This document shows positions 58,589 to 62,288 of a stretch of DNA of 64,000 nt, in pieces (position 1 is the first letter of the stretch; every line of letters begins with the position of its first letter). The notes below the pieces were generated by a model. It saw only the letters and a program-made list of their open reading frames with translations, did not search any database and had not been told where the DNA came from. Position numbers and translations under genes: made by a program. This DNA is from Alishewanella aestuarii B11 (GTDB taxonomy: Bacteria > Pseudomonadota > Gammaproteobacteria > Enterobacterales > Alteromonadaceae): contig NZ_ALAB01000010.1 in NCBI RefSeq assembly GCF_000280055.1, positions 62,001 to 126,000 of the forward strand, read 5' to 3'.

Positions 58589-59497
58589 TTACTCCATCAT
58601 CTTCTCAATCGGCAGCACCAGAATAGAGCTGGCGCCAAGTGCTTTTAACTGCTCCATGGTTTCCCAGAACAGGGTTTCGCTACTGACCACGTGAATGGCG
58701 ACCACATCGTTATTCCCCGCCAGCGGCAACAGTGTTGGGTTTTCGGCGCCAGGTAACAGTGCAATCACTTCATCTAAGCGGGAGCGTGGTGCGTGCAGCA
58801 TAATGTATTTACTTTCATTTGCCTGCATCACGCCCTGAATGCGTGGCATCAGTTTTCTAATCAGTTTTAGCTGACCGGCATCTGTCAGGCCTTTGCGCTG
58901 AATCAGTACTGCTTTGCTGCGGTAAATCACTTCGGCCTCTTTTAAACCATTGGCTTCCAGCGTGGCGCCGGTAGAGACCAGATCGCAGATCGCATCGGCC
59001 AGGCCAGCGCGCGGTGCCACTTCTACTGAGCCGGTGAGCATCACGATGCGGGCATTGACGCCTTGTTGTTTTAAAAAGCGTGCCAGTAAGCGCGGGTAAG
59101 TAGTGGCAATCGTTTTGCCATCGAGGCTTTGTACACCCTGGTAGTTTTCCTCTTGCGGCACGGCAATTGATAAGCGGCAGCCGCCAAAATCCAGTCGTGC
59201 CAGCACCTCATAGTCGAAGTTTTCCTGATCTAACTGGCGCTGTAGTGATACTTCTTCCAGCACGTTTTCGCCGATAATGCCAAGATCACAGACGCCATCC
59301 ATTACCAAGCCCGGAATATCGTCATCGCGCACCCGCAAAATATCAATCGGCATATTTTCGACATGAGCAATTAAGCGCTGTTCACGTAAGTTAATTTTTA
59401 AGCCACAGCTGCTAAGCAGGGCTTGCGAGTCCACGGACAGTCGCCCGGATTTTTGCATCGCGATACGTAAACGTTTACTTTCAATGGCCGGACTCAT
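58589..59497 (-). CDS. hisG: ATP phosphoribosyltransferase (long form)
   Basis: First committed step of histidine synthesis: ATP + PRPP. At 302 aa it is the long, hexameric HisG with a C-terminal ACT-like regulatory domain, normally feedback inhibited by histidine, so no HisZ partner is needed. [23 protein letters not shown], and the PRPP-binding segment [18 protein letters not shown] are present. AGGAG lies six bases before ATG. Directly downstream of the leader peptide and attenuator. Confidence 0.97.
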
Positions 59498-59536
59498 ACG
59501 TCACTCCTGATAGTCGAAAAATAAAAAACCTGAAAA

Positions 59537-59570
59537 CAAAAAACCCCGTGGCACTGGCCTGCGGGGTTTG
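59537..59570 (-). terminator. his operon attenuator terminator
   Basis: On the minus strand AAACCCCG and CGGGGTTT pair, followed by a T-run (TTTTTTG), between hisL and hisG. A competing stem CGGAGG/CCTCCG (59587-59592, 59606-59611) and a small stem GCCT/AGGC (59611-59626) just after the leader give the alternative folds needed for attenuation. Confidence 0.9.
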
Positions 59571-59625
59571 ATATGACAGTATCCACCGGAGGCCTTAGCA
59601 ATAGCCCTCCGCCTAAGCCGGAAGG

Positions 59626-59670
59626 CTAGGTGCTATGATGATGGTGCAGTGATACAGTGAACAGTGTCAT
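59626..59670 (-). CDS. hisL: his operon leader peptide (14 aa, four consecutive His)
   Basis: ATG at 59670 opens a 14-codon frame MTLFTVSLHHHHST ending in TAG at 59628-59626. Four His codons in a row near its end are the sensing element: ribosomes stall when charged tRNA-His is scarce, letting the antiterminator form. E. coli HisL has seven. Position, strand and the adjacent attenuator make the call firm, although the frame is too short for gene finders. Confidence 0.92.
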   Translation of the reverse strand: MTLFTVSLHHHHST

Positions 59671-59894
59671 GGGTTAATCCTGTACGTTAGATGCTATACA
59701 AGTTACTCCTGGCAAGCCTTGGTTGCAACTATTATTTTCAGTGGCAAATACGGCAATGTTTTTTAATTTATTTATTAATCAGTGATTTGTATTTTTTCGG
59801 CTTGTTTCGCATTAAAGTTTATCAGTGTTTAAAGTTCAAGACTGGCAACTAATTGCTTGTTTTATGGTCAGGTTGTATAGTCAATATTGCTGAT

Positions 59895-59921
59895 TAAAGT
59901 TTAGGCTAATGCAGTCGATAA
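59895..59921 (+). promoter_or_regulatory. Sigma-28 (FliA) promoter for the small protein gene
   Basis: TAAAGTTT (8 of 8), an 11-base spacer, then GTCGATAA (7 of 8 to GCCGATAA), 64 bases upstream of the ATG at 59985. This is a near-perfect flagellar class 3 promoter. The rest of 59671-59981 is AT-rich divergent promoter space for the his operon, whose own promoter I could not place confidently. Confidence 0.82.
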
Positions 59922-59984
59922 CAGTATGGTATTGCAACTTAACACTTTACGGCGGCCACGTTTTTAACACAGGCAGGAGGAATG

Positions 59985-60230
59985 ATGGACGTTTTTATGC
60001 CCTTTATTCAACGCACCCCGGGAACCCCTGTCGAACAGGATCCACGGCAGGTGCTGCCTGTGTTTAAAGAAGCCCGGCTGGAGCCGCTAAAACGCAATGA
60101 GCAAAAGTTTTTAATTCTGCGCCGCTTTGCCAAAAAAGCGCCGTCAGATGACTATCCGCCAGCACCCTACACCACGCCAGAGGAAGAGCAGCACGTCGAT
60201 AAAGATGGCCATGTGGATATTTTTATCTGA
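59985..60230 (+). CDS. Small hypothetical protein, probable flagellar-regulon member
   Basis: I do not recognise this 81-aa soluble, charged, proline-rich protein. It begins MDVFMPFIQRTPGTPVEQDP, has a basic middle (EPLKRNEQKFLILRRFAKKA) and an acidic, Pro/Tyr-rich end (YPPAPYTTPEEEQHVDKDGH then VDIFI). No signal peptide or membrane helix. ATG 59982 and 59985 are adjacent; AGGAGG sits at a normal distance from the second. A near-perfect sigma-28 promoter lies upstream, so I infer a motility or chemotaxis-linked role. It is divergent from the his operon and precedes yoaA by about 130 bases. Confidence 0.8.
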   Translation: MDVFMPFIQRTPGTPVEQDPRQVLPVFKEARLEPLKRNEQKFLILRRFAKKAPSDDYPPAPYTTPEEEQHVDKDGHVDIFI

Positions 60231-60362
60231 TTTTTGGCGCTGACAAGGCATAATAGCCGGCAATTGCTTTGTATTTTGCTTCTTTCTTCGTCTGGTTGAA
60301 GCCTTATTACTATTCTGGAGCTGCTGTGCTGCGTTTTTGTGATGCCGTTACCCGAGGTACTG

Positions 60363-62288
60363 ATGTCGGCTAAGGTCAAACATGCCTTTGCCGAACAGGG
60401 CACCCTGGCAAAACAGATCCCGGGCTTTAAGCCGCGTGCGGCGCAGCTGGAGATGGCACAGGCCGTAGCAGAAAGTATCTCGGCCAATGGTGTTTTGGTG
60501 GTGGAAGCGGGTACCGGTACCGGTAAAACTTACGCCTATCTGGTGCCGGCACTGCTGTCCGGTAAAAAGGTGATTTTATCAACCGGCACCAAAAACCTGC
60601 AGGAGCAGCTGTACTTTCGCGATCTGCCAACGGTATTACAGGCGCTGGCCCTGCCGGTAAAGACTGCGCTGTTAAAAGGGCGCGCAAATTATTTATGTCT
60701 GTTTCGCTTAGAGCAGCATTATCAACATATCCCTAGTGCTGATCCTGAGCTGATTAATGACCTAAGCCTGATCAAAAAATGGGCCGCGGAAACGCAAAGC
60801 GGTGATATCGGTGAGCTCAGTTATATCGCCGAAGACTCGCGGGCGCTGCCTTATGTCACCAGTACCACCGATAACTGCCTGGGTAAAGACTGCCCGGTGT
60901 ATGAAGACTGCCATCTGCTAAAGGCGCGCAAAGAGGCACAGGCAGCTGATCTGGTGGTAGTCAATCATCATTTATTTTTTGCCGATCTGGCGCTGAAAGA
61001 TACCGGCTTTGGTGAGCTGTTACCTGACATGGAAGTGGTGATCTTCGACGAAGCGCATCAGATCCCGGATATCGCCAGCGATTATTTTGGTGAGCATTTC
61101 TCCAGCCGGGTGTTGCTGGATCTGTGTAAAGACTTAGAGCAAATCGGCAAAACCGAACTGAAAGATCTGATCCAGCTAAGTAAAGCCGCCGATAAACTCT
61201 ACAGCCTGACCCGCGACTGGCGGTTGCAGTTTGCCGCCGAGCCAGCGCGTGGCAACTGGCGGCAGGCCTATCAGCAAAGCAATATGCAAACGGCAGTGAT
61301 CCGCATTAATGATGCGCTGGAGATGTTGTATCAGATTGTAAAAAGCAGTCTTGGACGCAGTCAGGCGCTGGATAACTGCTATGAGCGGCTGGCGCAGCTA
61401 AAAAGTCAGTTACCGAAATTGCTGCAAACCGAGCAAAGCGGTGTCAGCCTGTGGTTTGAAACCAGCCGCTTGCACGTGACATTGCATTTAACGCCGCTGA
61501 GTATTGCCGATAAATTTCAAAAACTGGTATTTGCCGCTGAACGCAGCTGGATCTTCACCTCGGCCACGTTGTCAGTAGATGAAGGCTTTGCTCATTATCA
61601 ACAGCAAATGGGCCTAGACGGTGCCCGTACGCTGTTGCTGGAAAGCCCTTTTGACTATGCGCAGCAGGCACTGCTCTGTGTGCCACGGTTTTTACCCGAG
61701 CCACATGAGCCGGCGATGGCGCATGCTTTGCTCAGTTTAGCTGTTCAGTTGATCCAGGCGAATAACGGCCGCTGTTTCTTTCTGTTTACCAGCCATCGTA
61801 TGCTGCAGTGGATGGCGGGCGCCTTGCCGGAGCAGATCCGTCAGCCGGTGCTGGTGCAGGGCAGTACCGGTAAACGTTTGTTATTAGAGCAGTTTGTGCA
61901 GCTGGAAAATGCGGTGTTATTGGGTACCGGCAGTTTCTGGGAAGGGGTGGATGTACGGGGCGATACCTTAAGCTGTGTCATTATCGACAAGCTGCCCTTC
62001 GCTTCGCCGGACGATCCCTTGCTGCAGGCACGCAGTGAAGACTGTACAATGCGCGGCAAAGATCCGTTCGCCGAGGTCCAGTTACCCCAGGCGGTGATTA
62101 CGTTAAAGCAGGGCGTCGGGCGGCTAATTCGCGATGTCAGCGACCGCGGTGTGCTGGTGATCTGTGATAACCGGCTTGTGACTAAGCCCTATGGCGCCAC
62201 GTTTTTAAAGAGCCTGCCACCGATGCGCCGCAGCCGCGATCTGGCTGAGGCCTGTCAGTTTTTACATGCTATGCAACAGGATAAATGA
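60363..62288 (+). CDS. yoaA: ATP-dependent DNA helicase, DinG/YoaA family
   Basis: 641-aa XPD-like superfamily 2 helicase with an iron-sulfur cluster. Walker A EAGTGTGKTYAY is near residues 48-59; cluster cysteines fall in NYLCLFRL and NCLGKDCPVYEDC (about 111-184); DEAH box VVIFDEAHQIPD near 228-239; motif VI-type GVGRLIRDVSDRG near the end. YoaA takes part in replication-fork repair with HolC in E. coli. ATG at 60363 with GAGG five bases upstream is chosen over the longer frame at 60339. Overlaps tsaB by four bases, the order yoaA-tsaB also being that of E. coli. Confidence 0.94.
   Translation: MSAKVKHAFAEQGTLAKQIPGFKPRAAQLEMAQAVAESISANGVLVVEAGTGTGKTYAYLVPALLSGKKVILSTGTKNLQEQLYFRDLPTVLQALALPVKTALLKGRANYLCLFRLEQHYQHIPSADPELINDLSLIKKWAAETQSGDIGELSYIAEDSRALPYVTSTTDNCLGKDCPVYEDCHLLKARKEAQAADLVVVNHHLFFADLALKDTGFGELLPDMEVVIFDEAHQIPDIASDYFGEHFSSRVLLDLCKDLEQIGKTELKDLIQLSKAADKLYSLTRDWRLQFAAEPARGNWRQAYQQSNMQTAVIRINDALEMLYQIVKSSLGRSQALDNCYERLAQLKSQLPKLLQTEQSGVSLWFETSRLHVTLHLTPLSIADKFQKLVFAAERSWIFTSATLSVDEGFAHYQQQMGLDGARTLLLESPFDYAQQALLCVPRFLPEPHEPAMAHALLSLAVQLIQANNGRCFFLFTSHRMLQWMAGALPEQIRQPVLVQGSTGKRLLLEQFVQLENAVLLGTGSFWEGVDVRGDTLSCVIIDKLPFASPDDPLLQARSEDCTMRGKDPFAEVQLPQAVITLKQGVGRLIRDVSDRGVLVICDNRLVTKPYGATFLKSLPPMRRSRDLAEACQFLHAMQQDK

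Follow-up and report, generated by a model that had tools for sequence, protein, structure and literature searches.

Why does a near-consensus promoter for FliA (sigma-28) stand before a small gene of no named family, beside the his operon and away from the flagellar genes, and what might the product do? The locus lies in the window, by which we mean the whole 64,000-nucleotide stretch of DNA analysed. The promoter, the coding status of the gene, the conservation of both, the tie between promoter and gene, and the terminal motifs of the protein were computed here. The main interpretation holds: as judged from sequence, the gene represents an overlooked, conserved, FliA-linked family of small proteins encoded outside the flagellar cluster.

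The FliA-type site and the 81-residue gene

The site consists of a -35 element, TAAAGTTT (59895..59902, forward strand), and a -10 element, GTCGATAA (59914..59921, forward strand). The FliA consensus is TAAAGTTT-N11-GCCGATAA, and the window sequence TAAAGTTT-N11-GTCGATAA at 59895-59921 agrees with it at 15 of 16 positions; in a pattern scan of the 64-kb window it is the sole match with at most one mismatch. In the whole genome (3.59 Mb), TMAAGTTT-N11-GCCGATAW is matched with one mismatch or none at nine sites, the window site included, against approximately 0.5 predicted by scaling from a control in which the pattern was reversed (with up to three mismatches allowed, 140 sites for the reversed pattern vs. 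169 for the real one). FliA itself is present in this genome (267.6 bits by profile, with a cut-off of 189.6). Contig C39 holds fliA, fliG, and four of the eight other FliA sites, and the window belongs to contig C10; thus, the gene lies outside the C39 flagellar cluster.

Sixty-three bases separate the site from the start codon (59985) of an 81-residue gene on the forward strand (59985..60230, stop included, with TGA at 60228-60230), so that consensus match, N11 spacing, and distance to the start are all as expected for a member of the sigma-28 regulon. The open reading frame (ORF) has two adjacent ATG codons, at 59982 and 59985; the second was taken as the start because it lies four bases past a Shine-Dalgarno sequence, AGGAGG (59975..59980, forward strand), and fits the Met-Asp start of the family. 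Purifying selection on the ORF (pN/pS 0.12-0.37 against 14 homologues) identifies it as coding. The window protein has no match in Pfam or NCBIfam, and profile searches with a 35-member alignment gave no credible match in Pfam, NCBIfam, or the PDB; the weak hits in Pfam and NCBIfam, none better than E 0.0067 and each confined to one of the 35 members, were taken as chance. An Rfam search of 59400-60400 found nothing. The first-pass annotation, which had described a near-perfect FliA promoter before an 81-residue gene with a ribosome-binding site, the protein belonging to no named family and the gene lying apart from the flagellar cluster, is therefore sustained on each of these counts, except that the distance it gave, 64 bases, is one too many.

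Distribution of the family and conservation of the promoter

Homologues occur on 14 genome contigs that bear the names Alishewanella, Rheinheimera, and Arsukibacterium, and every one of the 31 genus genomes has one. A single-sequence search recovered them from 65 of 395 family genomes, and a profile search from 43 of 394 genomes at order level. A class-wide sample yielded matches in 4 of 369 genomes, namely that of the window, two more from the family, and a weak, partial match (L167, E 6e-4), the sole one from outside the family, which was left uncounted; a search of plasmids returned no homologue. Within a sample of 80 family genomes, made up of 40 without a FliG match and 40 FliG-positive genomes picked by hand, 36 matches were spread over 29 of 37 genera. 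Duplicate loci of one genome (L002-L015 vs. L016 onward, L115-L120, L153-L165, and L170) and L167 were dropped before counting.

Promoters were scored with a weight matrix built from eight sites at flagellar-type genes of the window genome, with the gene under study excluded. The highest-scoring N11 site in the 250 bases upstream was set against 1300 dinucleotide shuffles, for which the 99th percentile (12.35 bits) served as the threshold and the largest score was 15.8 bits. All 48 close homologues (31 of the genus, 5 of g42, and 12 of g45) have a FliA site that exceeds the threshold and lies 17-63 bases ahead of the start codon, vs. 2/48 on the opposite strands and 0/48 in downstream stretches; the lowest score in this close set, 13.7 bits, falls within the tail of the shuffles. 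More distant members exceeded the threshold in 30 of 65 cases (5/17 plus 25/48; the two controls gave 1/65 and 4/65) and fell below it in the other 35. The NCGATA core of the -10 element is more widely kept: 115 of 126 loci have it no more than 130 bases from the start, compared with 11-16% of shuffled sequences. From the consensus match and this conservation, FliA very probably regulates the small gene.

Family f25, probably Shewanella, retains the NCGATA (-10) core in 13/13 loci and passes the threshold in 1/13. A -35 element at N11 spacing was looked for in f25 and is absent from most of these loci, which have TAAAGT at a spacing of 16, next to a conserved palindrome, AGAAAACGGTTTTCT. In f25 loci such as L137 and L140, this palindrome lies approximately 30-60 bases 5' of the start, at the place of the FliA -35 element and spacer, with GTCGATAA kept. 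Another regulator has possibly taken over in this family.

Terminal motifs and proposed role

The 121 distinct members of the family are 72 to 144 residues long, rich in disorder-promoting residues, and free of cysteine, and the window protein has no membrane-helix-like stretch; going by composition, the protein is probably disordered. The family alignment places conservation at both ends and in a short internal motif. The N-terminal motif (codons at 59985..60014, forward strand) reads MDVFMPFIQR in the window protein and resembles DLLFPILPR in distant members, and the C-terminal motif (codons at 60210..60227, forward strand) reads HVDIFI-COOH. All 121 distinct members have Asp at position -4 from the C-terminus, despite varying linker length, and V, I, or A as the last residue, the profile that found the family being one that includes the C-terminus, such that members without Asp at -4 would be harder to find. 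The exact placement of this Asp behind a linker of variable length suggests that the free C-terminus is recognised.

Two other groups of small proteins have similar endings, a likeness that was noticed after the fact. FlaG (PF03646), a filament-length regulator of polar flagellates, resembles the new family in being small, in having a FliA site in the window genome, in lacking cysteine (in the window genome and in four others), and in its C-terminus, which fits [LIVF]-[DN]-x-x-[VI] in five of six cases. Across six genomes the FlaG endings are LLIDKTV, LLVNRKV, IFLDEKV (twice), IFLEEKV, and NFIDSKI, with D or N at -4 in five and Glu in one. Among 325 ORFs of at least 110 residues from 20 flagellar regions, only four have the ending [LIVF][DN]xx[VIA], every one of them a FlaG. 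The FlaG genes found adjoin flagellin genes in the flagellar cluster; the small gene does not. A FliA site of its own was found for flaG only in the window genome, four other FlaG genes scoring below threshold (2.2, 6.4, 12.1, and 6.3 bits); four listed flagellin ORFs near FlaG genes score 18.8-22.8 bits (three) and 16.4 bits (one).

The second group comprises proteins like YjfB_motility (PF14070), small putative motility proteins of approximately 60-70 residues that, similarly to the new family, stand outside families of known function and are linked to FliA. Their FliA site is above threshold in 17 of 19 cases, and all 19 end in [IV]-[DN]-x-x-[AV], although the profile by which they were collected includes the C-terminus, so that the sample leans towards a shared ending. 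Some of the endings (IDTFA, IDTYA) are identical to those of the new family, whereas the N-terminal part, compared by eye, is unlike. Most of the YjfB-like proteins used fall below the Pfam cut-off for PF14070, which was passed in 2 of 50 genomes. L197 and L216 yielded no protein, L217 contains internal stops, and the scan of L209 and L210 started from a Met far upstream, the probable cause of their low promoter scores. Membership of the new family in FlaG, YjfB_motility, or FlgM was rejected, there being no match to the PF03646, PF14070, or PF04316 profile.

A role in the flagellum or in swimming is likely. We consider it reasonably probable that the gene is a late flagellar gene under sigma-28 and that its product, probably disordered, is an accessory protein whose C-terminus serves for docking. 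Once the hook is complete and FlgM has been exported, free FliA would transcribe the small gene along with flagellin, flaG, and flgM. The product would be a small cytosolic protein composed of a hydrophobic N-terminal motif, a variable charged linker, and the ending [LIVF]-D-x-x-[VIA]-COOH, and would act as a linear-motif adaptor whose free C-terminus docks on a flagellar partner common to FlaG and the YjfB-like proteins. In Campylobacter jejuni, FlaG is secreted, limits filament length, binds the export gate component FlhA, and antagonises FliS there, according to the part of the study available (PMC12445086). Because FlaG and the YjfB-like proteins end like the new family and C. jejuni FlaG binds FlhA, the cytoplasmic domain of FlhA would be the most economical candidate for the partner; docking of the small protein on the export gate is nevertheless a tentative proposal, suggested by analogy. 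Equally speculative is the broader idea that at least three families (this one, FlaG, and the YjfB-like proteins) share a docking signal, hydrophobic-[DN]-x-x-[VIA]-COOH, that might be read by one export-gate receptor, either FlhA or a chaperone-binding site on it.

The gene may instead be FliA-regulated to serve another need of motile cells, such as leaving a biofilm or turning over protein; the C-terminus would then act as a protease or PDZ-type tag. FliA regulons include non-structural genes, and a hydrophobic free C-terminus is also a ligand of PDZ-type domains and some proteases. Within the genus, FliA occurs in 31/31 genomes and the gene in the same 31, and in a set of 80 genomes chosen mainly for carrying the gene, FliA exceeds the cut-off in 71. 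Three of the nine FliA-lacking genomes keep the gene, as this explanation would allow: G107 (80% complete), G189 (93%), and G260 (99%), with promoter scores of 9.1, 14.0, and 6.5 bits, respectively. Against it, FlaG and the FliA-linked YjfB-like proteins have endings of the same kind, and the gene occurs far less often in genomes without FliG, a match to which is absent from 40 of 395 family genomes (20 listed as such, and 20 inferred from gaps among the matching genomes). The gene was found in 30 of 40 FliG-positive and 6 of 40 FliG-negative genomes, one of the six being a probable chance match; the Fisher test for 5/40 vs. 30/40 gives p = 2e-8, a value confounded by phylogeny and by the hand-picking of the FliG-positive genomes. 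That chance match, in G197 (E 0.0035, in a 379-residue frame), was counted apart. On balance, we regard this other-need explanation as unlikely.

The FliG comparison is further blurred in that two genera, g26 and g52, lack the gene throughout the sample and several FliG-negative genomes have FliA. The G260 genome (L107, L170), with neither a FliG nor a FliA match, is a possible case of recent flagella loss.

A feedback regulator resembling FlgM or FliT, with FliA or the flagellar transcription hierarchy as its target, is a less credible candidate still. Similarly to FlgM (PF04316), the anti-sigma-28 factor, which in the window genome is small, Cys-free, and the product of a FliA-driven late gene, the protein is small, lacks cysteine, is linked to FliA, and is rich in disorder-promoting residues. 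However, none of the 35 aligned members matches FlgM or has another credible Pfam match, the C-terminal motif does not occur in FlgM, and the window genome has a separate FlgM, which matches PF04316 and has its own FliA site. We consider such a regulatory role improbable and retain the flagellar accessory protein as the preferred reading.

Flagellar parts lists derive mostly from flagellar clusters and enteric bacteria; the small gene lies outside the flagellar cluster and was not found beyond a limited set of lineages. The locus-tag stems SO206 and SO207 lie near hisG. Neither stem was found in the accessible part of PMC3219624. For S. oneidensis, sigma-28 sites were predicted at motY, flaB, flgM, and pomA, among 169 putative sites, and the accessible text on these predictions does not name the small gene (PMC3120886); the same article cites work from 2007 that predicted sigma-28 promoters in Gammaproteobacteria. 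Literature searches brought up no description of the gene, and a bare Shewanella prediction may exist in supplementary tables or in the 2007 work.

A sigma-28-linked protein family that is present in 29 of the 37 genera sampled from its taxonomic family, yet has no credible profile in Pfam or NCBIfam, has the look of a late flagellar component that was overlooked. If its ending were a docking signal, one receptor would link three sets of small flagellar proteins about which little is understood, which would offer a handle on the control of filament growth in polar flagellates; the family would then represent a new regulator of filament growth in Alteromonadales-type bacteria, either exported itself or competing at the gate.

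Neighbouring genes and other FliA sites

The gene is flanked by hisG (58589..59497, reverse strand; Pfam HisG and HisG_C) and by a downstream DinG-type helicase gene (60339..62288, forward strand; Pfam Helicase_C_2 and DEAD), which we take to be dinG. Across 126 loci (one per genome), hisG is the divergent neighbour in 103, a dinG-like gene follows in 92, and both are present in 77, where a neighbour can be missed on short flanks. The promoter might accordingly serve dinG-tsaB, with the small gene merely in between, as the frequency of the downstream dinG-like gene would allow; furthermore, a pattern scan of the window detected no terminator-like site between the small gene and dinG. Yet the small gene is under purifying selection in its own right, and the site stays where the next gene is convergent or is not dinG (L150 and L156, 19.7 bits each; L159 and L172, 14.5 bits each; and L194, 22.0 bits), which makes this arrangement very improbable. 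A chance site before a spurious ORF is scarcely conceivable. When up to three mismatches are allowed, a single window holds no more matches than chance would give: besides the promoter site it has one further match, with exactly three mismatches, where 0.66 matches are expected in shuffles and 17 of 100 shuffles had at least two. But the site recurs in 48/48 close homologues and the ORF is conserved as a protein.

On the his side, 13 of the 48 close loci are not beside hisG, and the FliA site is present in all 13. Elsewhere, its neighbours are transporter genes (L112), or it follows a gene resembling metK (L156), both named by eye. Because the site is kept without hisG and can be strong without dinG, it belongs to the small gene and not to his or dinG; by the same token, the hisG neighbourhood is old synteny and not a functional clue, and a his-related role was rejected. 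The first-pass annotation was thus right about the position beside the his operon, and the conservation of gene and promoter that it had named as its test was found (in all 31 genus genomes and all 48 closest homologues, respectively), whereas the his setting carries no functional link.

The stretch from the FliA site to the his leader contains a conserved element, GTTGTATAGTCAA, in all 35 close-set loci with a hisG neighbour and in none of the 13 without; it is probably a his promoter or operator. In the window it reads GTTGTATAGTCAAT (59872..59885, reverse strand), outside the FliA site. In g45 loci the element abuts the FliA -35 element, and his transcription there could therefore be hindered when FliA binds. 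Farther downstream, at L157 and L164, a second small, Gln-rich, and probably disordered protein is encoded after tsaB, approximately 3.0-3.4 kb from the gene.

Elsewhere in the window genome, six of the eight other sites with at most one mismatch precede flagellar or flagellum-type genes, namely those for FlgM, flagellin, FlaG, FlgO, a protein that resembles YjfB but falls short of the Pfam cut-off (E 0.009), and a DUF5610 protein (L052, G000:C20:22110; one mismatch). The remaining two precede genes for a VC2046-family protein (L058, G000:C43:63039; one mismatch; Pfam PF11993, 97 bits) and for a 91-residue protein that begins MNERDCLQK and has no Pfam match (L050, G000:C26:42825). The L050 site is the only perfect FliA site of the genome, and the 91-residue protein is another candidate FliA target.
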